DNA from: Sphingomonadaceae bacterium
Lineage (GTDB): Bacteria > Pseudomonadota > Alphaproteobacteria > Sphingomonadales > Sphingomonadaceae
Length of the DNA: 34,698 nt
Reading direction: 5' to 3'
NCBI GenBank assembly: GCA_016000085.1
Contig: JAECRT010000032.1
Coordinates: forward strand, 1 to 34,698
The notes beneath the pieces are model-generated. The model was not told the DNA's origin. It searched no databases and was given only the letters and a program-made list of their open reading frames with translations. The first letter of the stretch is position 1; each line of letters starts with the position of its first letter. Made by a program: the position numbers and the translations under genes. Shown one piece after another: positions 11,375 to 27,819 of this stretch.

Positions 11375-11514
11375 CCGGTGCGCTCACGAAAACGCCACAT
11401 TAAGGTCGCCGCATCCGTTAATAGTCTCAGGAGGCAAGAACATTCCGATCTGAATAGGAGCAAGGCGGACGGGCGGCACTTTCGGCAGCCTTGGTATCAC
11501 ATCGCGAACAACAG

Positions 11515-11527: not shown

Positions 11528-11604
11528 AAGTTGAATAGGCTATGTGATGCAGCGTGATAACACGGCTGCAAGCTGAATTGTCTAGAAAAGTATCAGAAAG
11601 TAGG

Positions 11605-11629
11605 GGAACCCGACCGAAAGCCCCCCGTT
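11605..11629 (+). promoter_or_regulatory. EcfG-type (general stress) promoter-like motif
   Basis: GGAAC, 16 nt, then CGTT, matching the alphaproteobacterial EcfG consensus GGAAC-N16/17-CGTT. In this orientation it points into the antisense side of the groEL remnant. On the opposite strand the same block reads GGAAC-N16-GGTT (one mismatch) and would point at the LOV-HTH gene 230 nt away. A motif match only. Confidence 0.25.
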
Positions 11630-11634
11630 CCAGA

Positions 11635-12325: not shown

Positions 12326-12407
12326 GCGACTGCGCGGTAGCGCGTTCCGATTGTCGCGCTGGTGATATCGCAGGAACCGCAAGCTGCTGAGCGGCATTGA
12401 TCCCGTC

Positions 12408-13184
12408 ATGGATAATGAGCATGCACCTTGGCCTTCGCAACTCTGGATCGTCCGTCATGGACAAAGCGCTGGGAATGTCGCCCGCGACGCAGCGCACGAC
12501 GCTGCGCTCGATCGCATCGCGCTGGAGGGTAGGGACGTCGATGTGCCGCTCAGTGCTTTGGGTGAGGCGCAAGCCAGAGCGCTTGGTCGTTGGTTCGCTC
12601 ACGGCGGAATAATGGGTCCGCTACCCGATGTGATCCTATCCTCACCCTATCGCCGTGCCGTGCAGACGGCCAAGCTGTTCAGGGGCGAGGGGGGCGCTGC
12701 GATGGAGGAGCCCGTTTGCATTGACGAGCGGTTGCGCGAGAAGGAGTTCGGCATCCTTGACGGGCTCACGACCGGCGGCGTCGCAAAGCTTGAGCCGCAG
12801 CAAGCCGCTTTCCGCCAGACGCTAGGGAAATTCTATCACCGCCCGCCTGGTGGCGAGAGCTGGTGCGATGTTATCTTTCGCCTCCGGGCTTTGATGGACA
12901 CGGTGTCTCTCCACTATTCGGGGCAAAGGGTCATCATCTTCGCGCATCAGGTAGTGGTCCTGTGTCTGCGCTACATCATTGAGAATATGGATGAAGCCCA
13001 GATCCTGGATATCGATCGAGAGGCTGACGTCGCCAACTGCTCGGTCACAGAATATCGTTTCGACCCGCAAGCGGGGAGGCGCGGCAATCTGGTTCTTCAG
13101 CGCTATAATGTCGTGTCCCCGCAAGAGTTGGAGGCTGTGCCGGTGACGGACACCCCGGATTTACCTGCTGTTGCCCGGGGATGA
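12408..13184 (+). CDS. Histidine phosphatase family protein
   Basis: 258-aa member of the phosphoglycerate mutase/acid phosphatase superfamily. The catalytic [12 protein letters not shown] (Arg16, His17) is at the N-terminus, [11 protein letters not shown] follows as the second Arg motif, the acidic [10 protein letters not shown] comes next, and the second catalytic His is in [10 protein letters not shown]. It is somewhat longer than a typical GpmB-type phosphatase. The substrate cannot be told from sequence; cofactor-independent phosphatase is likelier than mutase. The stop overlaps the start of the NAD(P)HX dehydratase gene (ATGA), which suggests a nucleotide or sugar-phosphate substrate linked to metabolite repair. 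No clear ribosome site. Confidence 0.88.
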
Positions 13185-14077
13185 CCCAGATAATTTCCCT
13201 TGATGCAGGGTGGTGCGCTTCCCACCGGCTCCCGCAGATCGATAGCGGTTGCGATAAGAATAGCAGAGGGCGTGTCCTTCTGGTTGGCGGTGCGCGCTTC
13301 GTTCCAGGTGCCCTTGCGCTGACGGGCGAGGCCGTTTTGCGCGCGGGCGCCGGCAAATTGCAGATGGCCACTGTCGATGCGGTCGCGTCGGCCTTGGGCG
13401 TGCTGGTTCCAGAAGCCGCCATGATCGGTCTGCCGATGCGGGAGGACGGAGAGATCGCGCAGGATGGCGTTACTGTGTTGGCCGATCTGGTGCCGCAATG
13501 CGATCTTCTGCTTGTCGGACCTGGCATGAGTGCAACCGCGGAGACGGGCCTGTTCGTGCACGGCCTATTGGCGTTGCCCCCACCTGCCATGCTGCTTGAT
13601 GCCGCGGCGCTGACCTGCGCAAGTCTAGCTGAACTCGCGACCGCCGCAAGGAAACTGCCGCTCATTTTGACACCGCATCATGGCGAGATGGCCCGATTGA
13701 TTGGATGCGATCGGCAGGCCGTCGCCGCAAATCCTGCACATATGGTCGGCCAAATCGTGGAACAGACGGGCGCCTACATAGCGCTCAAGGGGCCTGAAAC
13801 ATGGATCGGCGGCCCCGGCACGCCTATCCTCCACTTTGCGGGAGGCTGTCCGGGGCTTGGTATCGGTGGATCGGGCGATGTCCTTGCCGGCATCATCGGC
13901 GGCCTGCTCGCCCGCGGAGCTGCACCGATTGCGGCCTTAGGCTGGGGTGTTGCCCTGCATGGGGCGGCCGGGCAGCTCGCGGCCACCAAGATCGGCGAGA
14001 TCGGCTTCCTCGCGCGCGAATTGCTGCCCTTTATTCCTCGCCTTATGCAGACGTTAGGACAGCCATTGTGTGCGTAG
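13181..14077 (+). CDS. nnrD: ADP-dependent NAD(P)H-hydrate dehydratase
   Basis: 298-aa ribokinase-fold enzyme (YjeF C-terminal/NnrD family) that converts the damaged cofactors S-NADHX and S-NADPHX back to NAD(P)H using ADP. Visible are the N-terminal GGARFVPGALALTGEAVLRA, the LVGPGMS turn, LTPHHGEMARLIG, and the catalytic GGSGDVLAGIIGGLLARG. The usual fused N-terminal epimerase (NnrE) domain is absent, so this is a stand-alone dehydratase; the cell may have another bifunctional copy elsewhere. The start overlaps the phosphatase stop. The nnrD symbol is by family; assignment is strong. Confidence 0.9.
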   Translation: MTQIISLDAGWCASHRLPQIDSGCDKNSRGRVLLVGGARFVPGALALTGEAVLRAGAGKLQMATVDAVASALGVLVPEAAMIGLPMREDGEIAQDGVTVLADLVPQCDLLLVGPGMSATAETGLFVHGLLALPPPAMLLDAAALTCASLAELATAARKLPLILTPHHGEMARLIGCDRQAVAANPAHMVGQIVEQTGAYIALKGPETWIGGPGTPILHFAGGCPGLGIGGSGDVLAGIIGGLLARGAAPIAALGWGVALHGAAGQLAATKIGEIGFLARELLPFIPRLMQTLGQPLCA

Positions 14078-14279
14078 AAATGGCCTCGTCTGCACAGGCG
14101 ACTACCAACATTGCGCGAAGGGTGCCAAGCGTCTCCTCGTGCGCCTTGACCTGCGCCTGGGCATAGCCTGCGACCCTGAGAAACTATCGATTGCGACCGG
14201 CTATGTTGCGAGTCGTTCGCGGGGAACCAACGCGTGTCCCGCAGGATTTACGCCTACCTTACATACAAGGAGGACAAAG

Positions 14280-14792
14280 ATGGCAGAGCCCCAGTTCACC
14301 GATGCGATCGCCTTGCTGAAGGCAGACCACCGAAAGGTGGAAGCCCTGTTCGAAAAATTCGAGCAAGCCACGTCCGCTAACCGCAAGCAGACCCTAGCCC
14401 AGGAAATCTGCGTCGAGCTCAAGGTTCACACGCTGATCGAGGAAGAGATTTTCTATCCTGCCTTCCGCGGTCTGATCGAGGATGACACGCTCAACGAAGC
14501 GTATGTCGAGCATGATGGCGCGAAGGTCCTGATCAACGATATAGAGGCAAGCTCGCCCGACGACGATTTCTATGACGCCAAGGTCAAGGTTCTCTCTGAA
14601 GAAATCAAACATCATGTCCATGAAGAAGAAATGCCGTCGGATGGCATGTTTGCCCAATGTCGCAAGACCGATGTCGATTTAGTTGCATTGCGCGATCAAA
14701 TGGCCGGGCGGAAGACTGAGCTCCTTAACTTGGCCAAGACGTCAGGATTGCCAGCGGCTAAACCGACCGCCGTCAATCTAGTCGCGGCATAG
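14280..14792 (+). CDS. Hemerythrin-domain (HHE) protein
   Basis: 170-aa four-helix bundle with the likely di-iron ligands: DHRKVEALFE, VHTLIEEEIFYP, EHDGAKVLI and HHVHEEEMPSDG supply the H-HxxxE-HxxxD pattern. Such proteins bind O2 or NO, or handle iron, in the cytoplasm. The open frame reaches back to 14070, but the ATG at 14280 has an ideal AAGGAGG about 7 nt upstream and starts at the family N-terminus. The C-terminal 25 residues are low-complexity, Ala-rich. It stands 202 nt from nnrD and is followed by a terminator, so it may be monocistronic. Comparable genes are often general-stress induced. Confidence 0.9.
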   Translation: MAEPQFTDAIALLKADHRKVEALFEKFEQATSANRKQTLAQEICVELKVHTLIEEEIFYPAFRGLIEDDTLNEAYVEHDGAKVLINDIEASSPDDDFYDAKVKVLSEEIKHHVHEEEMPSDGMFAQCRKTDVDLVALRDQMAGRKTELLNLAKTSGLPAAKPTAVNLVAA

Positions 14793-14805
14793 CTGATCTG
14801 CCGTG

Positions 14806-14836
14806 CCCCGGCGGCGCTTATGCCGTCGGGGGTTTT
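14806..14836 (+). terminator. Rho-independent terminator after the hemerythrin gene
   Basis: Stem CCCCGGCGGC (14806-14815), loop GCTTAT, then GCCGTCGGGG (14822-14831) with one non-canonical pair, followed by G and TTTT. It lies 14 nt after the hemerythrin stop codon and points along that gene. Confidence 0.75.
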
Positions 14837-15273
14837 AACTTGAAAATGAGTGAGGGCTCCGGTTGTTGGAGGGGCTGCGGCGGCGGAAGGATGCACGCGT
14901 GCTCCCGCCCCGTTGCTGCTTTGCACTGCAGCCATCGACGGCTTGCCGGGCTACGGCAGTATCGATTGCGGATGCAATTCAGATAAAATCACGCATTTGA
15001 CATTCGATTGCCCTGACGGCCGCCGCTCTCAGCGCCCCTCACTCGAATGCTGATGGTTTGACTGACTACTGTCGGCGGGCACTGCCAACCGGAATATAGA
15101 TGGGGAACGGCAAGAATGTCCCAATTCCCGTCTACCGATGTCGATCCATATGAGACGCTCAGTGATCAAAAATCGGTCCAGAGGTGCAGACCGTTCGGTT
15201 CCAGCAGCTCGCGATTAGATATTGCCGTTCAGATGGGGTGCCACCGATCATGAAACCCGCCGTTGCCCGGCTC
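14837..15273. other. Gap between convergent units, with fragment-like repeat
   Basis: About 440 nt without a gene between the hemerythrin terminator and the end of the ion-transport operon. The minus strand at about 15085-15165 encodes YGSTSVDGNWDILAVPHLYSG after a TGA, resembling the reading frame in the 8325-8694 gap (STSVGGSW...LVAVPS). This suggests a decayed dispersed element. I see no clear terminator for the minus-strand operon here. Confidence 0.4.
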
Positions 15274-17064
15274 CTAATAAAGACCGTAGCGAAGCACGAG
15301 TAGACCGGACAGGGTAAGAACCATGATCGCAACCAGCGGCAATCCAGTGCGCGTGTAGTCCGCAAACCGATAGTCGCCTGCCGACATGATGAGCATGTTG
15401 GTCTGGTAGGCAACCGGCGTCGCGTAGCAAAGATTGCAGCCGAACAGGACGGCCAGGACCAGCGGCTCAACCGGGATGCCCAGCTTCTGCCCCAGGCTGA
15501 AGGCGATCGGCGTTCCGACCGCCGCCGCCGTGGTGTTTGAAGCGAAGTTGGTCAGCACTGTGACGAACAGCATCACCGCGGCCAAAACGCCCGCCGGCGG
15601 CAGGAACTGCAGCCCCAGCGCGATCAGTTCGCTCAGCCATGCCGCCGCACCGCTCTCAAGAACAATACGACCGATGGCGATGCTGGCTGCGACCAGTACG
15701 ATGACCTTCGCCGACAAAGCGCGGCCGATCCGGTCAAATCGGACGCAGCCGGTGACGAGCATCGCGATCGCACCCCCGAGCGCGGAAATCGCGATCGGAA
15801 CGAGCCCGATGCTGGCGGGTACAACCGCGCATGCCATGATCGCGAGCGCCAACGGTGCCTTTGACGTCCGGGGAAGTTCCTTGGCTCCTTCGAGTACAAG
15901 CATATTCTCGGCCAGCGACATCCGCTCGATGCTGCCGAGCGCACCGGCGACGAGAAGAATGTCGCCTTCGTCAAACGCGTTTTCGGACGCAGAATCGTTC
16001 ATCGGCTGCGTCGCCCAGCGGCGTTGCGCGCGATGCACGCCAAGGATGGCAACATTGTAAAGCTCGGCGACATTTGCAGACGCCACGCCCTTGCCGACCA
16101 GGCCGGAATCCTTGGTCACCGCCAGTTCGGCGACGGTGATATCGTCACCCGTCTGGGCATAGCCGCCGCGCAACCGGTCCATCAGCCAGACCGGGGCGGC
16201 GGTAGCGCCAAGGATACGCATCGTCTCCTCCAGAGCGGCGTGCGTCGCCCGCACCGGCATCCGCCCGCCCGCAGGAGTCTCGGCCAAAAGCTCTACATCG
16301 GCGGGCAGCCGCGCGGCGATCAGATCGCGGGACAGCCCATGCGCGAAGGAACTCTCGCCCAGGCGGAGCATCGCCGCGAAGTGCCGCGGCTCGTGCCCGG
16401 CTTCGACAGAATTGTCTGGCAGCAGGCGCGGCATGACCAGCCAGATGAACGGCAGCGCCACCAGCGCGGCCAGCAGCACGATCGGGGTGAAGTGGAATAC
16501 CGACATCGGCGGCAGGCCGAGGTCGCCGGCGATCGACACGACGAGCAGGTTGGTCGAGGTGCCGATCGTCGTCGACATGCCGCCAATCAACACTGCGCTG
16601 TTCACCGGGATCAGCGTGCGCGACGCGGGCATTCCGCCATTCGCCGCGATCGCCGCCATAACCGGCAGCATCAGGACGAGCACCGGCGTATCGTTGACCA
16701 TCATGCTCATGCCAAACGCCAGCAGCAGCGTCACCAGGAGGCCGACCTGACGATTAAACCGCCAGACTCGCGTCAACAGGCGCGATACCGGCTCGAGTGC
16801 GCCTGTCGTCACGAGTCCTCGCCCCAGCACCATCAGCGCGCAGATCGTGATCAATGCGTAATGGCCAAACCCCTCGAATGCGAGCTTCAGCCCTTCAGTC
16901 GGTGACTGTCCGGGAAGCGGAAACCAGTAAAGACCGAGCGCGATGGCACTGATCGTCAGCAGCGAGATGATCTCGACGCGCGCCCGACCGGATACGAAAC
17001 CGTAGAACATCGCGCCTGTCAGCAGCATGGCGCCTAGAGCATGGGGTTGAGGAGCATCGATCAT
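15274..17064 (-). CDS. SLC13/DASS-family permease with RCK_C (TrkA-C) domain
   Basis: 596-aa inner-membrane transporter. About ten to twelve hydrophobic segments are split by a soluble loop at about residues 220-390. The substrate-site repeats are recognisable: MSTTIGTSTNLLV in the first half and NFASNTTAAAVGTP in the second, the SNT-type motifs of Na+-coupled anion and dicarboxylate carriers. The loop contains an RCK_C-like fold (ELAVTKDSGLVGKGVASANV, then DEGDILLVAGALGSI), typical of the SLC13 branch often annotated as sulfate, citrate or Na+/sulfate permeases. The substrate is unknown. It is the last gene of the operon, 3 nt after the ClC stop. Confidence 0.87.
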   Translation of the reverse strand: MIDAPQPHALGAMLLTGAMFYGFVSGRARVEIISLLTISAIALGLYWFPLPGQSPTEGLKLAFEGFGHYALITICALMVLGRGLVTTGALEPVSRLLTRVWRFNRQVGLLVTLLLAFGMSMMVNDTPVLVLMLPVMAAIAANGGMPASRTLIPVNSAVLIGGMSTTIGTSTNLLVVSIAGDLGLPPMSVFHFTPIVLLAALVALPFIWLVMPRLLPDNSVEAGHEPRHFAAMLRLGESSFAHGLSRDLIAARLPADVELLAETPAGGRMPVRATHAALEETMRILGATAAPVWLMDRLRGGYAQTGDDITVAELAVTKDSGLVGKGVASANVAELYNVAILGVHRAQRRWATQPMNDSASENAFDEGDILLVAGALGSIERMSLAENMLVLEGAKELPRTSKAPLALAIMACAVVPASIGLVPIAISALGGAIAMLVTGCVRFDRIGRALSAKVIVLVAASIAIGRIVLESGAAAWLSELIALGLQFLPPAGVLAAVMLFVTVLTNFASNTTAAAVGTPIAFSLGQKLGIPVEPLVLAVLFGCNLCYATPVAYQTNMLIMSAGDYRFADYTRTGLPLVAIMVLTLSGLLVLRYGLY

Positions 17065-17067
17065 ATG

Positions 17068-18405
17068 CTAGCGAACCGGGAGATCGGCATTCCGATCCGT
17101 ATCGGTGTCGCTTTCGCGCTCGGGTGGCAGGAATGCCTGCGACAATGCATGGTACAGACGTTCCTTCGAGACGGCCTGCGCCACGACATCGGCGATCAGC
17201 GACGAGGCGAGCAGCGGCATCATCAGGCCACGACTGCCGGTCGTCTCGGAAATGATGATGACCGCCGTCAGCGGGGCGCGGACGACACCGGTGAAATAGG
17301 CGACCATGCCGAGCAGCACGATCGCACCGCCGGAATAGGTCGGGAACAGCCAGCGCAGCATGTCACCGACGCCGGCGCCGACGGCGAGCGACGGAGCGAA
17401 AATGCCACCCGGCATGCCTGACACCGCCGTCGCCAGCGTCGTCGTCAGCTTGGCGATGCCGAACCAGTGCGGCACGTCGCCGCCGGTGATGATGCCGCGC
17501 GCCGCGCCATAACCAGTGCCCCAGGTCAGGCCGGTGGCGACGCCGATGATCGCGACGATCCCGCCGAGCGAACCCGCCAACAGCATCGGCCGCGACCGCA
17601 GCCAGACGACCGGTGACCAGCGTGTCCGCCCGGTCGCCAGCACCGCACGCGAGAAGAAAGCGCCCAGCAGCCCGCCGAGGATACCGGCCACGGGGGCGGC
17701 CAGCATCGTCTCGCGCACCGACAGCGTCTGTCGCATGACACCGAAATAGACATAGTCACCCGAGAGACCGAGGCTGACCATGCCTGCGATCAGCACCGCG
17801 GTCATCACCAGCAAGGTCATGCGCTGTTCGTAGGCGGCGGCCAGCTCCTCGATCGCAAAGGCGACGCCGGCCAGCGGGGTGTTGAACGCCGCGGCGACAC
17901 CGGCAGCGCCGCCCGCGATGAATACCGATGCGCGCAAGGGGATCACCATCACCCGATGCGCGTACCCCATGATCGATGCGGCGACCTGCACGGTCGGCCC
18001 TTCTCGCCCGGTCGAAGCGCCTACGAGCAAGGTGCCGATCGTGAGCACCAGCTTCGCGATCACGGTCTTTGCCGACACCAGACCGCCCATCGCATGGTCG
18101 GGATCACGCGTGGCCGCCATCACCTGCGGGATCCCCGATCCACGGGCCTGGGGAACGAAACGCGCCGTCAGACCAGCGATCGCCGCATAGCCCAGCGGGG
18201 TGACGATCAGCGGTGCCCACCACCAGCGCGCCGCGAGCGCCACGAAGCGGTTCCCCGCCCAGTCCGCGAGATGCGCAAACACCAGCGCGACGAGCCCGAT
18301 CATCACCGCGCCGCCCAGAATCGCCACGCGCCGCCGCCACACGGGTGCCGTGGGGCCATGCTCGCGCAGCAGATCGCGTGCCTGTTCGGGGAGTCGCACC
18401 ATCAT
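17068..18405 (-). CDS. ClC-family H+/Cl- antiporter
   Basis: 445-aa ClC protein without CBS domains. Chloride-selectivity motifs are GSGIP (89-93), GREGP with gating Glu135 (133-137) and GIFAPS in the second half. IEEL at 185-188 supplies an internal Glu aligned with the proton-transfer Glu of CLC-ec1, so 2Cl-/H+ exchange rather than a channel is likely. The frame is open upstream to 18597 through Arg-rich residues that look non-coding. The ATG at 18405 is chosen because it overlaps the preceding stop (ATGA) and follows GAAGG. A second ATG follows directly. It probably helps acid resistance or charge balance together with NhaA. Confidence 0.92.
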   Translation of the reverse strand: MMVRLPEQARDLLREHGPTAPVWRRRVAILGGAVMIGLVALVFAHLADWAGNRFVALAARWWWAPLIVTPLGYAAIAGLTARFVPQARGSGIPQVMAATRDPDHAMGGLVSAKTVIAKLVLTIGTLLVGASTGREGPTVQVAASIMGYAHRVMVIPLRASVFIAGGAAGVAAAFNTPLAGVAFAIEELAAAYEQRMTLLVMTAVLIAGMVSLGLSGDYVYFGVMRQTLSVRETMLAAPVAGILGGLLGAFFSRAVLATGRTRWSPVVWLRSRPMLLAGSLGGIVAIIGVATGLTWGTGYGAARGIITGGDVPHWFGIAKLTTTLATAVSGMPGGIFAPSLAVGAGVGDMLRWLFPTYSGGAIVLLGMVAYFTGVVRAPLTAVIIISETTGSRGLMMPLLASSLIADVVAQAVSKERLYHALSQAFLPPERESDTDTDRNADLPVR

Positions 18406-19610
18406 CCTTCGGCCGGTGCGCCGACCGCTGCGGCGACGAGGCAGACGAGCCCGATCGCGACGAAGCCGATCCGTTGTCCCATCGTTCCCTTCCCGTCCTT
18501 GATCGATATGATGAGCGCGAGGGCGCATTGCAGCGCGTAGAAGAGCGCGAAGGCGCGTGATGACAGCGCGACGACCTCGAACGGATCGGTCAGCCATACG
18601 ATGACGATCGCCAGTGCACCGGCCAGCGCGAATGCGAGCGGCACGCTGATCTTGCGCCCCGAGACCTCGTTGACCAGCCCACCAGAACCGATCGAGTCCG
18701 CCACCGCGGCGCTCAACTGGCTCGACACCGCGCCGACCAGCACGAACACGCCGAGCGCCGGCGCGATCAACTCCATGATGTCCAGGATGCCAGCGACGCC
18801 CTCAGTCGCTGCGGCACGCGTCAGGAAGGGCGTCAGCAAGGCGATGAAGGCGAGATAGATTGCCGACGAGATCCATTGCGCATGGCGCATCGTCCGGATC
18901 CGCAGCTCGGCGGGATAGGCATGACCGAGATATCGCGATGTCTCGAACCCTTGCACGGTGATGAGCAGCCCGAGCAACATCGGTACGCTGGCCAGGGACA
19001 GCTTCACCGGCGGCAGCGGATCGCCCGTGCCGTCGATCGCCGAGGAGATGCCGAGCGCGGCGAGCAGCCCGGCAATGATGCCGATCTTGATCGAGACGGT
19101 GCCGTGCGCGAGATGCTCGACCTTGCGCAGGCTGCCGCCCAGCGCGAGCAAGGTCATCAGTGCGATCAGGACGGTAACGATGACGTTGGCCGCCAGCGGC
19201 TGAGACGCGGGATCGATCGCTACAGGCTTGAGCGAAAATTCTGCCAGCAGCTTGAGATAATAGGCGACCGACACCGCATAGGCGAGCGCGAGGACGCCCT
19301 GGGTCACGCGCGCGAGCCACGCGACCGGATCATTGAACCGCGCGGTGGCCAGATGGCTTTCGACATGGATGATATTGAAGCGGATCACCGCGCCTGCGGC
19401 GTAGGCGATGGCAAGAAGCACGGCCATCGCACCCAGCGCTGCGCTGCCGAACTCGCGCGCCAGCAGCGGTCCGCAGATCAGGAAGCCCGAGCCGATGATC
19501 GAGGCGAGCGGCGTGACGGTCGCACGCCAGCCATCTGATCGTGCAAACTTCCCGAACGTCAGCGCGATCGTGACGATCACGGCAACAATCAGGGCGACTA
19601 TAACGATCAT
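18402..19610 (-). CDS. APC-superfamily-like polytopic membrane protein
   Basis: 402-aa inner-membrane protein with about eleven hydrophobic helices. The N-terminal ASIIGSGFLICGPLLAREFG, with a broken first helix (IIGSGF), resembles the amino-acid/polyamine/organocation and Nramp-like fold, and LLITVQGFETSRYLGHAYP resembles the sixth helix of that fold. I cannot assign a substrate; classic Nramp metal ligands (DPGN, MPH) are not seen. The ATG at 19610 is preferred over the upstream GTG-type option because it overlaps the DUF2254 stop (ATGA) and has GGGAGG just upstream. The stop overlaps the ClC start. Confidence 0.75.
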   Translation of the reverse strand: MIVIVALIVAVIVTIALTFGKFARSDGWRATVTPLASIIGSGFLICGPLLAREFGSAALGAMAVLLAIAYAAGAVIRFNIIHVESHLATARFNDPVAWLARVTQGVLALAYAVSVAYYLKLLAEFSLKPVAIDPASQPLAANVIVTVLIALMTLLALGGSLRKVEHLAHGTVSIKIGIIAGLLAALGISSAIDGTGDPLPPVKLSLASVPMLLGLLITVQGFETSRYLGHAYPAELRIRTMRHAQWISSAIYLAFIALLTPFLTRAAATEGVAGILDIMELIAPALGVFVLVGAVSSQLSAAVADSIGSGGLVNEVSGRKISVPLAFALAGALAIVIVWLTDPFEVVALSSRAFALFYALQCALALIISIKDGKGTMGQRIGFVAIGLVCLVAAAVGAPAEG

Positions 19611-21016
19611 GCAGTTCCTCCCAGCCACGCATTGCCGTCCCGGAGGCGACGTCTGTAATCGGGTTCAGCCAGCGCACGCAGCAGGTCGTCGGCGCGCATC
19701 AGTACCGTGTCGCGGCACGTGCCGTCGAGCGCCGTTTCGGACAGCTCCCGGAATTCGCGGGTCTGGCGCGCTAGACAAGCGATGCGGCCCGGGTCGTCGC
19801 AGTGGAGCGCGACATCGCCAAGCGCGCCGAGGAAATGCTTTCCTGCAATCATATCGGCGCTCGCATATTGCGCGAGCGCGCCGAACGACCGGGCGATGAA
19901 GCCCTCGAACGTTACCGGATGCGCGATGACGCGTAGCCTATCGTCTTCATCCGCACGCAACCGCGACGGCAGGTCGCGTCGGGCCAAATCCGCCATTGCG
20001 GCGCCTAGCCAGTCGAGGCAGCTGTTCGCGGTGAACGGATCGTTGACCCCCGGCGACAGCGCGCGGGTAGCGATCTCGACAAGTTCGTCGATCAAGAAGC
20101 GCAGGTCCTGGAGCGCAGTACGTCTGGAGCCGACCGCGAAGGCCTCGCGCAGGGCCTTCGCCGCGGCCTCGTCGCAGCGTTCGCCCGGCCATGCCTCGAG
20201 CAATACGCTGCCCTTGTGGATGAAATCGCCTGGCTGATACTGCAGGCGGATCACGAGGTCGTGCTCATGCGCCGCGGCCATGAGTGTGCTCTCGTCGATC
20301 AGTTGGATATACCCGGTGTCCTGTGACCGGACCGGCGCGCGCCGGTCATGGTCGGCGCGACCGGCCTCGGCCCGGAACACGGCGGGTATTCGTGGATCGT
20401 CAGAGCGCTCCTCGAGCGGCGTCCCGACGAACACCGGAAAGCGCGCATCGATCTCCTCGATCAGCCGGTCGCCGATCCGCTCGATGACGTTGTTGATATG
20501 GATCCGCATCGGCACGTGGTGGATGAAGAAGATCAGCACCGCGATCGAGCAGAGCACTAGGATCAACGCAACCAGCAAGGCAAGCTGTGGCACGAAGGCT
20601 GCTGCCCCGGCTCCACTTTCGCCGGTCGAACGGATGGTCCGCAGGACGACCAGCGAATAGACGAAGGTCGCGATGAAGGTGCCGAGCGTCACCTGGTTGC
20701 CGCGATCCGACATGAAATTGCTCAGCAGTCGCGGACCATATTGCCCCGAGGCGTAGACCACTGCGGCGATCGTCACCGAGAAGGTCGTTCCGGCGACCCC
20801 AATCATCGACCCGCCGATCGACGATAGCAGGCTGCGCGCGCCATCCGGCCGCGCGGCATAAAGCCATGCCAAGCCGTCCATCCACGCCGAGCCCGCGTGA
20901 CTGTCGATATAGACCATCGCCAACGCGAGCAGCAACGCGCCGACCGCCATCACCGTCGGCACGAACCAGTAGCTTTCACGCAGATCGTTCGACAGGCGCA
21001 GCAGGCGGGCTCTCAT
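19607..21016 (-). CDS. DUF2254 membrane protein
   Basis: 469-aa DUF2254 family protein of unknown function. Four hydrophobic segments in the first 180 residues surround the family signature SIGGSMIGVAGTTFSVTIAA and SGQYGPRLLSNFMSDRGNQ. A long soluble C-terminal part follows (TGYIQLIDESTLMAAA, HEHDLVIRLQYQPGDFIHKG, then IATRALSPGVNDPFTA). The ATG at 21016 places the start just before the first helix; the upstream open frame is Pro/Arg-rich and unlikely to be translated. It is 64 nt from the DUF389 stop, the only loose joint in the operon. A role in ion homeostasis is inferred from neighbours only. Confidence 0.88.
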   Translation of the reverse strand: MRARLLRLSNDLRESYWFVPTVMAVGALLLALAMVYIDSHAGSAWMDGLAWLYAARPDGARSLLSSIGGSMIGVAGTTFSVTIAAVVYASGQYGPRLLSNFMSDRGNQVTLGTFIATFVYSLVVLRTIRSTGESGAGAAAFVPQLALLVALILVLCSIAVLIFFIHHVPMRIHINNVIERIGDRLIEEIDARFPVFVGTPLEERSDDPRIPAVFRAEAGRADHDRRAPVRSQDTGYIQLIDESTLMAAAHEHDLVIRLQYQPGDFIHKGSVLLEAWPGERCDEAAAKALREAFAVGSRRTALQDLRFLIDELVEIATRALSPGVNDPFTANSCLDWLGAAMADLARRDLPSRLRADEDDRLRVIAHPVTFEGFIARSFGALAQYASADMIAGKHFLGALGDVALHCDDPGRIACLARQTREFRELSETALDGTCRDTVLMRADDLLRALAEPDYRRRLRDGNAWLGGTA

Positions 21017-21080
21017 GCTTGTTTTGCCGCATCGGCCGCCATCTCGCTCACGCGATCGGCTTGGGGCAGGAAACGGCCGA

Positions 21081-22643
21081 TCATTGTGCGATAGCGATCG
21101 AGAGGGCGAACCGTTGGCCTGCGGCGGGTGCGGCCACGGCACCGACGCCCTGCGTCGCCAGCATCGCCGCCACCGCTCGTGCCCGTCTCTGGGTGAGGTT
21201 CGGTCGCGCGGGAGGTTCGCCGCCCGGCAAACCTGGAACCGAGAGCGTCGGCACGTTCCAACGCCGTGCCGCCCACGCGGATGTGATTACTGCGGCGCGC
21301 GCTGATGCATCAAGCGTATCGACATTGTCAGCGAATTCAATCTCGGGCAGCGACCCCTGCGGCGGCACGATCGTCACGGTCCACCCGTCCGTTTCCGCCG
21401 CGGCACGCACTTCGAGGGTGCGATAGGTAGCGATGGTTGCGCCCGGCAGCGGCACCGCCGCCGCGGTCGCCCGCCGGTGATCGCGATCGATAGTGACGTC
21501 GTCAGCTGCTATGCCTGTGATGAGCGCGATCATCCGCGCCAGCGCCGTCATCCGCTGCGCTTCGAGGTTCGACTGATCCCCGGCCTGGCGCAACTCTTCG
21601 CGCTGCGCATCGAGTGCGCCCGCACCGGCTTCGAGTAGAACCTGGTCGATATCGAGCCGGACGGGACGGCCAAGTGCATCTGCGATCGACTTCTGCAAGG
21701 TCGCGGTCTTGTGGGTCCGCCCGCGTGGGGCAATAACGACCGCCCGAACGACGTTCGGCTCACGGTCGAACTCGACCTCCAATTGCGTGACGCGCGCATC
21801 GCTGCCGAACCGGTCGTTGAGCAGTGAACGCACCTGCGACACCGTCAGCGCCTCGCGCGCAATGCGATTTAGCGACAGTCCGAGTGGGACCGCCATAACC
21901 GCGAATACCAGAAGCAATACGATGGTCTGCATCCAGCTTTGCCGCGAGGAGAGATGGTGCGCAAAGCCGTAGTACCGCGCCATGACCGTTGCGGAGAGAG
22001 CGATGGTGATGAAGTTCGTGACGAACAGCGCAAGCGCTCCGCCAAGGACAGGCAGGTTCCAGGTCGCGAGGCCATATCCGACGACGGCCAGCGGCGGCAT
22101 CAACGCAGTGGCGATGGCGACGCCGACTATCGTCTCCCCGCGGCCTCTGATGATGGCGAAAGTGCCGGCCAACGCGGCGAACAGCGCGACACCCAGGTCG
22201 AACAGATTTGGTCGCGTTCGCGCCACGATCTCGGCAGTGGGTGCCTGCAATGGCGACAGGCTGACGATCAGCGCGGTGAAGACGACAGCCGCGAGCGATC
22301 CGAGGGCAAGCGCGAACACCGACCGCCGCATTTCGGCGAAATCGAACAGCGCGAGGCTGAAGCCGAAACCGAGAATGGGATTCATCAGCGGCGAGATCAG
22401 CATGGCGCCGATCACCACGGCAGGCGATGAGAGCAGCAGCCCGAGCACCGCGATGCCTGCCGACATCATCGTCATGAAAGCGTAGCGATGCGACCAGCCG
22501 CTTTCCTCTACGATCCGCGCGACAACCGCTTCGTGGTCGATCGGACCGACGACACTGCGCCGCCACCATTTGTAGAGGGCAAGTCTGGTCAACCGCTCGC
22601 GTATGGGATCTCGTCCAACGGTCCCGTCGGCGTCAGCCATCAT
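21081..22643 (-). CDS. DUF389 membrane protein with long C-terminal domain
   Basis: 520-aa protein. About six hydrophobic segments (residues 55-260) carry the DUF389 motifs SSPAVVIGAMLISPLMNPI and ATALMPPLAVVGYGL. A soluble part of about 260 residues follows, ending in SVPGLPGGEPPARPNLTQRR, which faintly recalls the OmpA-type NxxLSxxRA helix. DUF389 proteins are widespread and uncharacterised. The start codon (a double ATG) overlaps the stop of the 64-aa ORF (ATGA). The C-terminal domain is larger than in minimal DUF389 proteins and may be a sensor or periplasmic module; topology was judged by eye. Confidence 0.87.
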   Translation of the reverse strand: MMADADGTVGRDPIRERLTRLALYKWWRRSVVGPIDHEAVVARIVEESGWSHRYAFMTMMSAGIAVLGLLLSSPAVVIGAMLISPLMNPILGFGFSLALFDFAEMRRSVFALALGSLAAVVFTALIVSLSPLQAPTAEIVARTRPNLFDLGVALFAALAGTFAIIRGRGETIVGVAIATALMPPLAVVGYGLATWNLPVLGGALALFVTNFITIALSATVMARYYGFAHHLSSRQSWMQTIVLLLVFAVMAVPLGLSLNRIAREALTVSQVRSLLNDRFGSDARVTQLEVEFDREPNVVRAVVIAPRGRTHKTATLQKSIADALGRPVRLDIDQVLLEAGAGALDAQREELRQAGDQSNLEAQRMTALARMIALITGIAADDVTIDRDHRRATAAAVPLPGATIATYRTLEVRAAAETDGWTVTIVPPQGSLPEIEFADNVDTLDASARAAVITSAWAARRWNVPTLSVPGLPGGEPPARPNLTQRRARAVAAMLATQGVGAVAAPAAGQRFALSIAIAQ

Positions 22644-22834
22644 GCGCCTGGTTCCTCAAAATGCAGTTCACGCCCAGCGGCTATATTGCTCCATGCGGCT
22701 GTAGCCAACCAGGTGCCGCGTGGGCAAACATTGCCGAGAACCGCAAGACGAATCGCCATGACCCACGCCCCTGAATGTATCACATAGGGGGATTCGGGAG
22801 CGATGCTGCGGCCCGTTTTGTGACCTGCGATCAT
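22640..22834 (-). CDS. 64-aa ORF locked between two ATGA overlaps
   Basis: Small ORF of no recognised family. Its ATG overlaps the pirin-like gene stop (ATGA) and its own TGA overlaps the DUF389 ATG (ATGA), so ribosomes can pass from one gene to the next. The peptide has no clear membrane helix or signal peptide; it reads MIAGHKTGRSIAPESPYVIH at the start and AAGRELHFEEPGA at the end. It may be a genuine small subunit or only a coupling device that carries ribosomes to DUF389. Without the double overlap I would have dismissed it. Confidence 0.45.
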   Translation of the reverse strand: MIAGHKTGRSIAPESPYVIHSGAWVMAIRLAVLGNVCPRGTWLATAAWSNIAAGRELHFEEPGA

Positions 22835-23514
22835 GCAGGCATCTCGATCAGCATGAGTTCCGCGTCGTCCTTGCCAGATACGACAAGCCTTGTTTCCCCG
22901 TCGATCGCGATGCCTTCATATGGCGCAAGTCCCGTTCCATCGTGCGTGACAGCCCCTTTCAGAAGAAACGCATAGGCGCTGGCAGCCGTAATCGGAATGT
23001 CGGCGGACAGGCCGTTCGGTATATGATGCTTCGTCATCGTCGCGGCACAATGCAGGCGATATAAGCCTGTATCGCGCATGCCGGCGATGACCTGGGTCTC
23101 TTGCGGTCGGCTTTGGCGCAGTCGCCGCACGACGGCCGGGGCGTGCGGAGCCTCGCAGGTCAGCCAGATCTCGGTGTAGGCCGCGTCGACATCGAGCGCG
23201 TTGGCGATCGAGAAATGGAGTCCCGACCCGGCGTAGGTCGATAATACCTGCCCGCTGCGGACGCGCGTTGCTTCGCCGTTCAGTCGCACGAAGTCGATCG
23301 CGCCACTCTCGACGATATGGATCACCTCCGTGCCATAATGCGTCACGGGCGTGGTCGCTGCGTTCGGCACCAATATGTTGTGGTTGACCGCGCGCAGCGC
23401 TCCCCAGTTGACCAGATCGACGTTTTGCGCGCCCGCGAAACAGAAATGATGACGCGCCCGGATCCATCCGAGTTCCGAGACGCCCAGCGATGCTGCATGT
23501 CGATGCGAGATCAT
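22831..23514 (-). CDS. Pirin-like bicupin protein with altered metal site
   Basis: 227-aa cupin protein resembling YhhW-type pirins: HRHAASLGVSELGWIRARHHF at the start, WGALRAVNHNILV, then the cupin core and the C-terminal DDAELMLIEMP. Pirins normally bind a metal with HxH near the first cupin motif and HxE in the second. Here the first motif reads VTHYGTEVIH, keeping one His, and the second reads GSGLHFSIAN, with His and Glu replaced. Quercetinase activity is therefore doubtful and a structural or regulatory role more likely. Its start overlaps the nhaA stop and its stop overlaps the next ORF. Confidence 0.8.
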   Translation of the reverse strand: MISHRHAASLGVSELGWIRARHHFCFAGAQNVDLVNWGALRAVNHNILVPNAATTPVTHYGTEVIHIVESGAIDFVRLNGEATRVRSGQVLSTYAGSGLHFSIANALDVDAAYTEIWLTCEAPHAPAVVRRLRQSRPQETQVIAGMRDTGLYRLHCAATMTKHHIPNGLSADIPITAASAYAFLLKGAVTHDGTGLAPYEGIAIDGETRLVVSGKDDAELMLIEMPA

Positions 23515-24704
23515 GGCACCATATCCTGGTGCTTTGAATTTTCGGTCCCACTTCCCATGCGCAGGACCACGAATCCGAGCAGACCCGCGAGAAACGATCC
23601 TCCCAACACGCCGATCTTGGCTTCTGCCTGCAGCAGCGGGCTTGCCGGGAAGGCGAGCAATGTGATGAAGATGCTCATCGTGAAGCCGATGCCGCAGAGC
23701 AGCGCCACACCGAACAACTGGAGCCGGTTCGCGTGCGCGGGCATATCCGCCAATCCTGTTTTAACCACTAGGATAGAAAACCCGAATACGCCGACCACCT
23801 TGCCAATCAGCAGGCCGGCCGCGGTGCCGACCGTAACCGGTGCCAACATGGCGCCGGGAGGAAGGCCGAGAACCGGAACCGCCGCATTTGTCAGTCCGAA
23901 GATGGGCACGATGAGGAAGCCGACGGGGGTGTGCAGAAGTTGCTCCAGTCGATGGAGCGGGCTGACGCAGTCCGCATCGGAGCGACCGGGCGTGCGCTCC
24001 ATCGGGATGGTAAAGGCCAGCATCACGCCGGCGAGCGTGGCGTGGATGCCGGATCGCAAGACGAATACCCATAGGATCACCCCGACCAGCAGGTAGGGGG
24101 ACAAGCGCCGGACGCCGAGGCGGTTGAGCGCGATCAACACGCAAAGCGCCACGCCGGCACCCGCCAGATCTGGCAACGACAGCCCCGCAGTGTAGAACAG
24201 CGCGATGATGACGACCGCGCCCAGATCGTCGATGATCGCGAGTGCGGCCAAAAACACCCGCAGCGACGCCGGAACGCGATTGCCCAGCATGCCGATGACG
24301 CCGAGCGCGAAGGCGATATCGGTCGCGGCGGGGATCGCCCAGCCGGCGGCTGTCGGGCCGCGATTGAATGCCAGGTAGATGAGCGCCGGCACGATCATCC
24401 CGCCCGCGGCGGCGACGCCCGGGAGAATACGGCGCGACCACGTCGAGAGTTGACCGTCCAGCACTTCGCGCTTGATCTCAAGTCCGACGAGAAGGAAGAA
24501 CACGGCCATCATGCCATCGTTAATCCAGTGGCTGAGCGAGAGCGGCCCGAGATAGGCGTGCAGCATCGCAGCGTAGCTCGTTCCGAGCGGGGAGTTGGCG
24601 ATAACCAGCGCCACGACCGCAGCCGCCATGAGCACAATGCCCGCGGACGATTGCGCTTCGAGGAAGCGGCGGATTGCGCTCTGGCGCGCGTATATTTGGG
24701 TCAT
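23511..24704 (-). CDS. nhaA: Na+/H+ antiporter NhaA
   Basis: 397-aa inner-membrane exchanger that expels Na+ or Li+ for protons, important at alkaline pH and high salt. Family hallmarks are FFLLVGLEIKREVLDG (68-84), PAATDIAFALGV with Asp129, and AIIDDLGAVVIIA with Asp159 and Asp160, matching the E. coli Asp133, Asp163 and Asp164 ion-binding residues. ATG 24704 is preferred over the TTG-initiated longer frame (24749) because it sits close to the usual NhaA N-terminus. First gene of the operon. The last residues overlap the start of the pirin-like gene. No clear ribosome site; the promoter should lie just upstream. Confidence 0.95.
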   Translation of the reverse strand: MTQIYARQSAIRRFLEAQSSAGIVLMAAAVVALVIANSPLGTSYAAMLHAYLGPLSLSHWINDGMMAVFFLLVGLEIKREVLDGQLSTWSRRILPGVAAAGGMIVPALIYLAFNRGPTAAGWAIPAATDIAFALGVIGMLGNRVPASLRVFLAALAIIDDLGAVVIIALFYTAGLSLPDLAGAGVALCVLIALNRLGVRRLSPYLLVGVILWVFVLRSGIHATLAGVMLAFTIPMERTPGRSDADCVSPLHRLEQLLHTPVGFLIVPIFGLTNAAVPVLGLPPGAMLAPVTVGTAAGLLIGKVVGVFGFSILVVKTGLADMPAHANRLQLFGVALLCGIGFTMSIFITLLAFPASPLLQAEAKIGVLGGSFLAGLLGFVVLRMGSGTENSKHQDMVP

Positions 24705-25519
24705 CGGCGGGAGTCCGGTCGCAAGGATTATCGCTGGCGGCCCGACCAACGTGATAACCTGTCCGATTCCAACGGAACGCGAACACCCTCGGGCGGCTAT
24801 CGCATCAGTCGGTCAATGGGGCAACCGAAGACGTTAGCCTTGCCGTTTTAAGCGCACACTAATTTACCGTCTTCCAGGCTCGCTAGGCATGCTGGGCAGT
24901 TGCCCGACTGGACCGGACAGCGCCCGAATTGGGCGGGCGTTCTACGGGCCGAGAAGCAGCGTAACCTGTGAAGCATCTGCTTTGAGATACCGACAATTAC
25001 TCTAGCCAGGATATGTCGGCAAGGTTTCACATCGTAGCCGGTTCGCCACATCCCGCGAGGCAGTCCAATCGCGTTAGGCAACCCGCGTGGCCGGTCGCCC
25101 TCTGGCGGAGAACTGCTTTGGCGAGCTCAAACCGCAATGCCGCCGGTCAGGTTCGGGCAGGCTTGCTCATTCAATGCGTGGCGCGCTTTCAGCTCGGGCT
25201 GGCGGCATGTACCGTCACAATTTTCCGCGTCCAGGCGTCATTGACGCGAGCCTGCCACTGGATCACCTCAATCGCGCGCCATCAATGATCAACAATCGCT
25301 GAATGGCTCTTTCGCGTTGCCGAGGCGTTATCTGCCAGCAACGATTCAGAAAGATACCATGGCAAGCCCCATAAACGACTTTGGCGAACATCGTACCGCC
25401 TTCTCACCTTTGGCTGCTCGGATGTTCAACTATGATCGAGCGGGAGAGGTCGCCCGGGATCGAGAAACCTTCGATCCCGATCGCTGCAATGAAACCATCT
25501 CGCAGAAGGAGGTTGTCGA
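24705..25519. other. 815-nt divergent intergenic region
   Basis: Lies between the divergent nhaA operon (-) and the lipoprotein/CDF pair (+), so it should contain both promoters. I saw no convincing EcfG-type motif. Several short open frames occur. The only one with any support (25359-25523, 54 aa, beginning MASPINDFGEHRTAF) ends in an ATGA overlap with the lipoprotein gene but lacks a good ribosome site and a recognisable family. Otherwise I see nothing specific. Confidence 0.4.
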
Positions 25520-25966
25520 ATGAAGTTTGGTATCTTCTCCGCCTTCTTGCTGCTTGGGGCATGCGATGCGTTGCCGCGCGACCCCGCCGGTACTTCGGTA
25601 CGGGTTGCGCAAATGCAGAGCTTCACAGTGGCACTGGCCGATCCTACCGTTCACGGTGCGCCGGAAGTCGCAAAGCTTGTCCATGAAATCGAGCGGAGAA
25701 CCGGTGCGCATGCTCGATGGCTGCCAGGATCGGGGGAGGCGCTATTTCGGCAACTCGATGACGGCACAATGGATCTCGTCATCGGACGTTTTGCGGCCGA
25801 CAGTCCCTGGGCGACGGCTGTGGCCTTCGGCCCGACCCTCTCGACAAGCGGAGCCACAGACACACCGCTCAAGCTCAGGGCGGCCATGCGCAATGGTGAG
25901 AACCGATGGATCATGACGGTAGAGCGCGCCAGCCGCGCGATATCGCAGGAGGCGCGAGAAGAATGA
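25520..25966 (+). CDS. Small predicted lipoprotein, solute-binding-like
   Basis: 148-aa exported lipoprotein: short signal MKFGIFSAFLLLGAC with lipobox and lipidated Cys15. The mature part (VHEIERRTGAHARWLP, LDDGTMDLVIGRFAADSPWA, VAFGPTL) looks like one lobe of a periplasmic substrate-binding protein of the family-3 type, too short for the full two-lobe fold. The start has AAGGAGG about 7 nt upstream. Its stop overlaps the start of the CDF exporter gene (ATGA), so the two are made together; it might deliver or sense the exported metal. Family membership is tentative. Confidence 0.7.
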   Translation: MKFGIFSAFLLLGACDALPRDPAGTSVRVAQMQSFTVALADPTVHGAPEVAKLVHEIERRTGAHARWLPGSGEALFRQLDDGTMDLVIGRFAADSPWATAVAFGPTLSTSGATDTPLKLRAAMRNGENRWIMTVERASRAISQEAREE

Positions 25967-26898
25967 GCGACACGAGCCTTCCCCAAGAACTGCGCGAAAC
26001 AATGGCCCGTGCAATACGCCTTGAATATTGGAACATTTTCTGGACGCTCACGATCATCGTGACGATGGGGCTTGTGCTGGGGCAGAGCCAGACGATGAAG
26101 ACCGCCTGGATCGAGGACACTCTGGGCCTCGTGCCGCCGGTCATGTTTCTGGTGGCCGCGCATATGGAGCGTTACGGCCATCGCTCCCGCCGTTTCCCCT
26201 TCGGATTCGAGCGGGTGAATGGTCTCGGCTTCTTTGTTGCGGCGGTAGCACTGACAGCCGTCGGTGCGCTGTTGCTCTACAATGCTTTGATGGCGCTCGG
26301 CAAAGCGGAACATGCGACTGTCGGATCGATCGTCATTCTGGGCCACGACATCTGGCTCGGCTGGCTAATGATTGCTGCGCAGATTTATTCGCTCATTCCG
26401 CCGCTCTTTATAGGGCGGAAGGAGCTGCCGCTGGCGCGGGCGCTGAACGACAAGCTGCTGCATACCGACGCCCTCATGAATAAGGCGAACTGGCTCACCG
26501 GCGCGGCCGGGCTTGCCGGCATCATTGGCCTTGGCCTTGGCTGGTGGTGGGCTGATTCGATGGCGGCTGCCATCATTTCGCTCGATGTCCTCAATGATGG
26601 CATCAAGGCTTTGCGATCCTCCACTGCCGAACTGGTAGACGGGGCGCCAAGGGCTCTTTCGAGCACTGACCTGTCGGAAGACGCGCAGAATCTCTGTGAA
26701 CGCCTCAAGGCGGAATTTCCCGGCGCCACCATTCGACTGCGTGAAACCGGGCGGCTGATCAGGGCCGAAGTCCATGATACGCATCCTCCCTCGCAACACC
26801 GTCATCCACGGTACTACTGGCCTGAAGGCGAGGACAGAGCCTGGCGACTGGCGCAGGTCAGTTTCATCCCGCCCATCGAGGGTGATGGCGAAAGCTAG
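25963..26898 (+). CDS. Cation diffusion facilitator (CDF) metal transporter
   Basis: 311-aa CDF protein that would export divalent metals by proton antiport at the inner membrane. Five or six hydrophobic segments; CDF signatures include FPFGFERVNGLGFF, the metal-site HTDALMNKANW and WWADSMAAAIISLDVL. A C-terminal cytoplasmic domain with a His-rich stretch (HPPSQHRHPRYYW) ends the protein. The HxxxD sites are partly altered (Asn for the usual final Asp in HTDALMNKAN), so the metal cannot be predicted. The ATG at 25963 overlaps the lipoprotein stop. It converges with the second CDF gene, the two stop codons sharing CTAG. Confidence 0.85.
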   Translation: MSDTSLPQELRETMARAIRLEYWNIFWTLTIIVTMGLVLGQSQTMKTAWIEDTLGLVPPVMFLVAAHMERYGHRSRRFPFGFERVNGLGFFVAAVALTAVGALLLYNALMALGKAEHATVGSIVILGHDIWLGWLMIAAQIYSLIPPLFIGRKELPLARALNDKLLHTDALMNKANWLTGAAGLAGIIGLGLGWWWADSMAAAIISLDVLNDGIKALRSSTAELVDGAPRALSSTDLSEDAQNLCERLKAEFPGATIRLRETGRLIRAEVHDTHPPSQHRHPRYYWPEGEDRAWRLAQVSFIPPIEGDGES

Positions 26899-27819
26899 GC
26901 CGGTGGTGGCTGCCTCACCGCGTCGGCCTGTTTTTCCGGCCGGATGTAGATGGAGGTGAGTTCCGGAATGCGGGCTTTCATTTCGCGCTCGATATCCTCA
27001 ATCAGGGCTTCTGCTTGTCCCATCGGCAGATCGTCGTCAAAATCGGCGCTGATTGCAACGAACACCGCATCGGGCGCGGTATGGATCGTGCGGACATGAT
27101 TGACCGCACTTATCTGGGGCCGCTTGTCGAGGATCATCCATACCGCCGATATCACCGCGGGATCGGCACTTTCGCCGATAAGAAGTCCCTTGGCCTCGCG
27201 CGCGAGAAGAATAGCCACCCCGGCCAGAATGAACCCTATGGCGATCGAAGCAACGCCATCGATCCGCGGGTCGCCATAGTGATGGCTGGCCCAGACGCCC
27301 AGGCCTGCGATGGCAAGGCCGATCAACGCTGCGCTGTCCTCGAACAGCACGATGAAGCCGGCCGGGTCCTTGGATCGGCGGATCGATTGCCACCAACTGC
27401 TCGCACTGCGCTTTCCGTTAAACTCGCGTACCGCAATAGCCCAGCTTGTTCCTTCAAGCAGCATGGCGACCGCCAGCACCACATAGTTGATCATAGGGTC
27501 GCGCAGCGGTTCGGGCTCGGCGATGTGCAGCCAGCCTTCGTAGATCGACACCCCAGCACCGACGGCGAATATCATAATCGCGACGACAAATGCCCAGAAA
27601 TAGAGTTCGCGGCCATAGCCGAAGGGATGCGTGGCGTCTGAGGGGCGTTTGGCTTTCGCCTGCCCATAAATCCATTAGCGAGTGAAAGCCTTCGGTGAGC
27701 ATGGAGGAAGAGCCGCTGATGGCCGCCGCCACGAATTTGGCGATGGCGATCCCGACATTGGCGAACAGTGCGCCGAACAGAACGATATTCTCGCGGAGCC
27801 TGCCCGACAGATCAGCCAT
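26895..27819 (-). pseudogene. Second CDF cation transporter, frameshifted
   Basis: Broken CDF gene. The N-terminal part (MADLSGRLRENIVLFGALFA, then SSSMLTEGFHSLMD) is in one frame. The rest (YGQAKAKRPSDATHPFGYGR, ELYFWAFVVAIMIFAVGAG, DGVASIAIGFILAG, NHVRTIHTAPDAVFVAISAD) is in another. At the junction, near 27668-27677, the usual (T/S)GN-LLL segment that follows HSLxD is missing, so a deletion of roughly 20 nt both shifted the frame and removed part of the second helix. Both halves are otherwise well conserved, implying recent loss. It may be a relative of the intact CDF gene beside it but is not closely similar in sequence. Confidence 0.85.

Follow-up and report, generated by a model that had tools for sequence, protein, structure and literature searches.

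The closest described system is the Li+-I (nhaA-I) riboswitch together with the nhaA gene (White et al., 2022, PMC9646797). In the accessible part of that paper, natural nhaA-I variants responding to Na+ are described, and the Na+ variants equipped with terminator stems were found in Deltaproteobacteria only. The sul1 RNA (RF03058, a name taken from Rfam) is also comparable, as a cis-regulatory RNA adjoining SulP transporter genes in neighbouring clusters; it is absent from the window, i.e. the whole 34,698-nt stretch of a Sphingomonadaceae contig (JAECRT010000032.1) analysed here. The locus we report resembles the first of these systems in its RNA family and in the site of this RNA before nhaA. 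We consider it likely, on balance, to be a mobile, modular alkali-cation/pH/osmotic operon under one riboswitch, along which coupling would spread the signal.

Layout of the operon and its predicted proteins

The locus had been described in a preliminary way as eight ORFs lying in one direction, and all eight are indeed open on the minus strand at 15274-24704 of a draft assembly (3.23 Mb, 83% complete). The features are the following.

24732..24788, minus strand: nhaA-I RNA (RF03057, Li+-I riboswitch class; cmscan)
23511..24704, minus strand: nhaA, Na+(Li+)/H+ antiporter, 397 aa (PF06965, 455.7 bits; TIGR00773, 408.8 for a cut-off of 254)
22831..23514, minus strand: pirin-like bicupin, 227 aa (PF02678, 30.9 for a cut-off of 26.1; PF17954 over cut-off)
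22640..22834, minus strand: orf64, with ATGA overlaps at both ends and no family
21081..22643, minus strand: DUF389 protein, 520 aa (PF04087, 133 bits, over gathering score)
21013..21084, minus strand: 23-codon ORF, probable nhaP stub, with ATGA overlaps with DUF389 and DUF2254
19607..21016, minus strand: DUF2254 membrane protein, 469 aa (PF10011, 417.6 bits, over gathering score)
18402..19610, minus strand: 'APC-like' protein, 402 aa, with no significant family match
17068..18405, minus strand: ClC, probable H+/Cl- exchanger, 445 aa (PF00654, 252.8 bits)
15274..17064, minus strand: CitMHS/SLC13-like permease, 596 aa (PF03600, 213.5 bits)
15240..25023, no strand: block common with the related genome G015 (blastn)

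The junction lengths first reported, five ATGA overlaps out of seven and one 3-nt gap, hold: the overlap is of 4 nt at nhaA/pirin, pirin/orf64, orf64/DUF389, DUF2254/'APC-like' and 'APC-like'/ClC, and the ClC/SLC13 gap is of 3 nt. The 64-nt DUF389/DUF2254 gap has the right length, but this stretch is itself a 23-codon ORF, overlapping both neighbours by ATGA. Nine annotated plasmid stretches (eight from Sphingomonadales and one from Caulobacter, with incomplete gene tables) served as background. Of the 140 co-directional pairs listed in them, 20 (14%) overlap by 4 nt, and among the 83 that lie no more than 100 nt apart the share is 24%; at these rates, five such junctions out of seven have a probability of 0.001 and 0.011, respectively. 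A promoter scan returned one site in total (2.4 expected) and none upstream of nhaA.

The family labels initially given to NhaA, pirin, DUF389, DUF2254 and ClC are all backed by scores over cut-off. In an alignment with a bacterial ClC chain of solved structure, the ClC protein retains GSGIP, GREGP and IEE, the last two of which we take to be the exchanger glutamate motifs; it scores below the cut-offs of the equivalog models ClcA and ClcB. As to the SLC13-RCK_C label of the last gene, the broad PF03600 is matched, the DASS/SLC13 model TIGR00785 stays below its cut-off (84.4 against 198.6), and TrkA_C gives a sub-threshold match (23.2 for a Pfam cut-off of 27 bits, E 6.7e-5). The APC label lacks significant sequence support: the protein has no significant match in Pfam, NCBIfam or PDB sequences, one distant homologue matches AA_permease_2 at E 2.8 only, and the structural model is mostly helical but poor (pLDDT 45.7, from a three-sequence alignment). 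Its homologues are found in 21 plasmid records; on a Limimaricola plasmid, one stands at the end of a heat-shock/protease gene run.

The DUF389 model is of much higher quality (pLDDT 92.3), with a membrane domain at about 34-238 that tentatively resembles the FNT and aquaporin folds; identity to these channels is 7-13% and, unlike them, the model has an extra OmpA-like C-terminal part. Among openly accessible published papers, none treating DUF389 together with DUF2254 was found. One match on 'DUF389' actually concerned DUF3893, and one paper that mentions DUF2254 deals with knotted proteins.

Short open reading frames and probable gene losses

The 23-codon ORF is probably the stub of a deleted nhaP gene, because relatives (G001, G458, G221, G087 and S. 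aracearum) carry a complete nhaP, encoding a Na+/H+ exchanger, at the site of the 64-nt gap, a correspondence overlooked in the preliminary description. Its last 7 codons match the 3' end of the G458 nhaP at 15 of 21 nt, in register (0 of 20,000 shuffles); the same end-anchored comparison is weaker with G221 (11/21) and G001 (10/21), and gives no signal with G087 (7/21) or S. aracearum (6/21). Local alignment of the whole ORF with nhaP is weak, shuffles being as good in 4 of 300 cases for G458 and 9 of 300 for G001.

The 'APC-like' gene appears to have shrunk likewise. Only short ORFs are left of it in G015 and probably also in G458, where a 24-codon ORF is like the start of this gene at 14 of 18 nt; its local alignments with the lost gene lack significance, 36 and 63 of 300 shuffles being as good. 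Three different probable gene losses have given in-frame ORFs that overlap both neighbours. As for orf64, it matches no family in Pfam or NCBIfam, and its pN/pS of 1.49 against G015 (2 synonymous and 9 nonsynonymous changes, 11 in all) gives no sign of purifying selection, which is seen for SLC13, ClC, DUF389 and DUF2254 (0.04-0.17) and for NhaA (about 0.24). A functional protein was therefore rejected, and orf64 is probably a linker or a remnant. The pirin gene and orf64 are both absent from the nearest other operons, those of G001 and G458, where nhaA adjoins DUF389.

All these short ORFs (the 23-codon ORF, orf64 and those of G015 and G458) could quite possibly be chance leftovers with no role in downstream expression, an explanation that we hold somewhat short of probable. 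The absence of selection on orf64 argues for it, as does the pirin deletion of G015, which is out of frame, so that in-frame deletions are three of the four recognised, a proportion expected by chance with P = 0.11. It accounts less well for three separate probable losses all retaining overlaps with both neighbours.

The nhaA-I RNA at the operon head

The preliminary description missed the RNA that heads the operon. In a cmscan of the whole window, nhaA-I scores 47.8 bits for a gathering score of 37 (E 1.2e-6); it lies 27 nt before the nhaA ATG and is the sole match in the 3.23-Mb, 83% complete assembly. The same RNA lies upstream of nhaA in related operons (G015, G001, G458, G451, S. aracearum and the S. 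insulae plasmid). In a survey of the genus with strict filters, by which weak matches were lost, 17 sites were found in 15 of 94 genomes, and nhaA follows at all of them. At 12 of these 17 sites, nhaA comes without any listed transporter gene within 9 kb downstream (the remaining sequence being only 2.6 kb in G414 and 6.6 kb in G411), and for this reason the riboswitch and the cassette are separable.

Sequestration of the start codon was considered as a general expression platform but is not consistently supported: the probability of nhaA start-codon pairing with the aptamer ranges across loci from 0.01 to 0.97 (19 of 25 loci, with script-picked starts, some of them probably wrong). The leader of the window folds no better than its shuffles (z -0.70).

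The RNA of the window may alternatively be a Na+ sensor, heading a sodium/alkaline-pH regulon to which lithium would be irrelevant. This is conceivable, but we lean against it. The natural Na+-responsive variants described in the part of White et al. (2022, PMC9646797) cited above speak in its favour, and Na+ stress would suit both the other gene contents and the nearby ectoine genes, present close to four loci of the near DUF389 group defined below (L011, L111, L112 and G007). However, the variants with terminator stems were found there in Deltaproteobacteria only, and the general family model scores the RNA of the window above its gathering threshold.

Association, probable mobility and possible function of the cassette

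The association of the families is not random. Among 149 family genomes, window included, and within 15 kb, DUF389 is found with NhaA in at least 11 copies (1.28 expected), with SLC13 in at least 9 (1.26 expected), with DUF2254 in 7 (0.86 expected) and with ClC in 5 (0.39 expected), these expectations taking every genome to be 3.2 Mb in size and related genomes not being independent. Left out were four sub-cut-off DUF2254 rows and, for two ClC genes and one SLC13 gene that are split, the second piece. Four of the ten family pairs are unconvincing among the matches listed: DUF2254-NhaA (P 0.66), ClC-NhaA (0.33), NhaA-SLC13 (0.089) and DUF2254-ClC (0.062). Several of the families thus lie together in other genomes far more often than expected by chance, as the preliminary description would require.

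Within the genus, this association depends on the DUF389 group, the groups being set by identity and not by a tree. The near group consists of 22 loci with an identity of 62% or higher and of the broken locus of G014. All 23 have one or more of nine listed families within 9 kb, and all 23 still do when DUF2254 and the 'APC-like' protein are not counted, whereas in the far group (21 of its 25 loci examined) this is so at 3 of 21 (Fisher 1.3e-9); the reference families came from neighbourhoods of the near-group type, which biases the comparison toward the near group. The locus sets overlap, as L109, L111, L112, L149 and L012 appear to correspond to G453, G024, G415, G070 and G008, respectively, and one set of relatives consists of the best 80 matches of a longer list. 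No convincing riboswitch match accompanies 18 of the 23 near-group loci, and nhaA is missing within 9 kb at 12 of them, which led us to reject a module of nhaA only.

Relatives carry shuffled versions of the operon, in gene order as well as in content. G001 has the full order nhaA-DUF389-nhaP-DUF2254-unassigned ('APC-like')-ClC-SLC13, G221 has this order without nhaA, and G458 runs from nhaA to ClC without the 'APC-like' gene and without an SLC13 match. On S. insulae plasmid unnamed3, Sphingobium TKS pTK1, Novosphingobium pSA2 and Polymorphobacter p29334-1, several of the same families are adjacent, in a shuffled order; within the stretches compared, only that of S. insulae has nhaA and a riboswitch match.

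Mobility, which had also escaped the preliminary description, is suggested by G015. Compared with the window, a 20-kb stretch of it (L051) shares only 15240-25023, in three blastn pieces of 96.0-98.5% identity, i.e. the operon with 319 bp on the upstream side of nhaA and a further 34 bp past SLC13; this copy has two deletions and lies in unrelated flanks. On a contig of 65.7 kb, the G001 operon has genes for ParA, ParB, a relaxase and a resolvase beside it. Sphingobium RAC03 pBSY17_1 is 92-94% identical over 8611-15132 and 30492-34398 of the window, and has no megablast match to the operon. Judging from these sequences, the cassette seems able to pass from one replicon to another in different sphingomonads. 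Transposon insertion was rejected, no exact 11-nt direct or inverted repeat being present between the 550-bp stretches at the block edges.

The locus could also be one of several loose stress or osmotic islands, in which transporters, each useful in saline or polluted habitats, gather on plasmids or chromids with no joint function, the ATGA overlaps reflecting compact genomes and the riboswitch signal stopping at nhaA. The shuffled order and content agree with this, as do the 12 of 17 genus riboswitch sites without listed transporters behind nhaA, the 24% of close pairs that already overlap by 4 nt, and the 'APC-like' homologues, one closing a heat-shock/protease gene run and others adjoining hydrogenase genes. 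We nevertheless find it unlikely, as the order is complete in G001, kept without nhaA in G221 and kept from nhaA to ClC, minus the 'APC-like' gene, in G458, probable gene losses left in-frame ORFs, and the association is group-specific (23/23 against 3/21). About equally doubtful is a strict translational relay, in which the riboswitch would gate nhaA, the overlap chain would relay the signal, the stubs would be kept because the relay needs them, and DUF389 would be a new FNT/aquaporin-like channel class serving NhaA-driven pH/charge balance. A known heat- or stress-tolerance island, considered from the Limimaricola setting of the 'APC-like' homologue only, was discarded.

The initial proposal of one pH/osmotic system is thus retained in part: co-location is above chance and the nhaA-I RNA at the head fits a single cation/pH/osmotic system, but order and content are not fixed. 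In the modular operon that we favour, the nhaA-I (Li+-I class) RNA just before nhaA would sense a cation. When an alkali cation (Li+, possibly Na+) accumulates, for example at high pH or salinity, it would turn nhaA translation on; with such tight gene packing, ribosomes would probably move from gene to gene, and stop/start coupling on one mRNA would raise DUF389, DUF2254, the 'APC-like' protein, the ClC exchanger and the CitMHS permease. We infer this ligand, the single transcript and the translational coupling, together with the presumed substrates of the DUF and 'APC-like' proteins and a physiology in which the exchange of outgoing cation for H+ would be matched by anion, proton and solute fluxes restoring pH, charge and osmotic balance.

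Stress from alkali cations and pH would thereby become a setting in which DUF389, DUF2254 and the 'APC-like' protein can be tested, in an operon headed by a validated class of RNA sensor, and the gene stubs, if real, would offer a natural test of translation-level riboswitch control over distal genes. Compared with the Li+-I riboswitch and nhaA, as presented in the accessible part of PMC9646797, nhaA is in the window the first gene of a dense multi-transporter operon, and the reach of this riboswitch would be extended from nhaA alone to such an operon.

Genes and junctions of the operon

The minus-strand operon at 15274-24704, which the preliminary description had taken for one eight-gene pH/osmotic system, does form a coherent operon for ion homeostasis, although its set of eight genes is not fixed; on sequence comparison, it is probably a modular and mobile ion-homeostasis cassette, headed by a candidate nhaA-I riboswitch. 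The picture is altered because of two features, an nhaA-I RNA before nhaA and a 23-codon ORF in the 64-nt gap.

When the ORFs and junctions were recomputed, each of the eight ORFs was as described and so were the lengths of the seven junctions, and family scans upheld the NhaA, pirin, DUF389, DUF2254 and ClC labels. The last gene, called SLC13-RCK_C, encodes a CitMHS-type permease, but RCK_C (TrkA_C) is sub-threshold and the DASS/SLC13 model falls below its cut-off. Sequence searches gave no significant support to the 'APC-like' label. The gap between DUF389 and DUF2254 does have the length reported, but is actually a 23-codon ORF with an ATGA overlap at each end. The five 4-nt overlaps among seven junctions stand above the plasmid background (P = 0.001, or 0.011 with close pairs only); they are unusual but not extreme, because 20 of the 140 co-directional pairs listed from nine annotated plasmid stretches also overlap by 4 nt.

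About 80 nt past the SLC13 stop lies a terminator-like stem-loop with a T run (15193-15174, minus strand); the scanned stretch holds 11 sites of this kind, against 6.8 expected. One homologue of the 'APC-like' protein is the last gene in a run of heat-shock/protease genes, on a plasmid of Limimaricola (L053:11941-13134), and two others sit directly ahead of NiFe-hydrogenase genes, on plasmids of Alteromonas and Glaciecola (L055:11938-13161 and L057:11938-13161).

The nhaA-I RNA

The candidate riboswitch, overlooked in the preliminary description, is the only one that matched anywhere in the 3.23-Mb assembly, which is 83% complete:

24732-24788, nhaA-I RNA, 27 nt ahead of nhaA, 47.8 bits (cut-off 37)

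The nhaA-I family is the Li+-I riboswitch class that White et al. (PMC9646797) describe. Within the genus, 17 sites occur in 15 of 94 genomes, all 17 with nhaA downstream and five followed by a DUF389 operon. Beyond this set, the RNA is found in S. aracearum, on an S. insulae plasmid and in genome G121, each time with DUF389 after nhaA. Class-wide, under strict filters, six of 385 genomes have a match, four of them above the cut-off; of the five besides the window, three lie ahead of nhaA, unlike the remaining two, which score below the cut-off. Folding showed no consistent pattern of start-codon sequestration. In related clusters, sul1 RNAs (RF03058) lie by SulP transporter genes (L094:5398-5453, L111:13135-13190 and L192:1722-1777, the last two loci apparently being one contig).

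Modularity and probable mobility

In the relative G001, the order is nhaA-DUF389-nhaP-DUF2254-'APC-like'-ClC-SLC13; G221 has the same order minus nhaA, and G458 runs from nhaA through ClC without the 'APC-like' gene and with no SLC13 match within 9 kb. In all three, a 425-codon nhaP (PF00999 match for the G001 and G458 copies) occupies the place that the 23-codon ORF holds in the window and in G015, the two differing in length by a net 402 codons, in frame. The last seven codons of this ORF match the G458 nhaP end in register at 15/21 nt (0 of 20,000 shuffles), and other nhaP ends weakly or not at all (G001 10/21, G221 11/21, G087 7/21, S. aracearum 6/21).

The G015 'APC-like' gene has lost 1017 bp in frame, leaving a 63-codon ORF that overlaps both neighbours, and the G015 pirin gene has a 148-bp deletion, out of frame; the deletion joints (L051, G015 contig C11) show overlaps of 4 and 2 bp. 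G458 has at the 'APC-like' position a 24-codon ORF overlapping its neighbours, without significant alignment to the lost gene. Selection to preserve a relay, that is, translational coupling from nhaA to later genes through stop/start overlaps, is suggested at most, because three in-frame losses out of four, with the G015 pirin deletion as the contrary case, give P = 0.11.

Window and G015 are 96-98.5% identical across 15240-25023, except for the two deletions; the rest of the 20-kb G015 stretch has no match to the window. In G001 the operon adjoins ParA, ParB, relaxase and resolvase genes, on a contig of 65.7 kb. Window segments 8611-15132 and 30492-34398 share 92-94% identity with plasmid pBSY17_1 of Sphingobium RAC03, to which the operon has no megablast match. 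On this plasmid the two are adjacent in reversed relative order, which points to a rearrangement of the replicon. Two cation-efflux (PF01545) ORFs, 25906-26898 (plus strand) and 26895-27575 (minus strand), converge, with a 3'-end overlap of 4 nt.

Association of the families

Among 149 family genomes (window included), DUF389 lies within 15 kb of NhaA, SLC13, DUF2254 and ClC at roughly 7-13 times the expected frequency, and DUF2254-SLC13 (9 vs 1.29 expected) and ClC-SLC13 (6 vs 0.68) are also enriched. At the same distance, DUF2254-NhaA (P = 0.66), ClC-NhaA (0.33), NhaA-SLC13 (0.089) and DUF2254-ClC (0.062) are unconvincing. When DUF389 copies of the 94 genus genomes were split by identity to the window copy, every one of the 23 near loci had, no more than 9 kb away, one or more of the nine families on the list, and 16 had at least two; only three of the 21 far loci examined (of 25) had any (Fisher 1.3e-9). 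Gene order is shuffled between relatives, and ectoine genes are close to some DUF389 loci.

Of 28 DUF389 loci placed outside Alphaproteobacteria by record title, seven have NhaA at most 10 kb away, in Bacteroidota and Moraxellaceae hosts (L167, L172, L181, L183, L185, L186 and L187), a hint that the link between DUF389 and NhaA is an older one.
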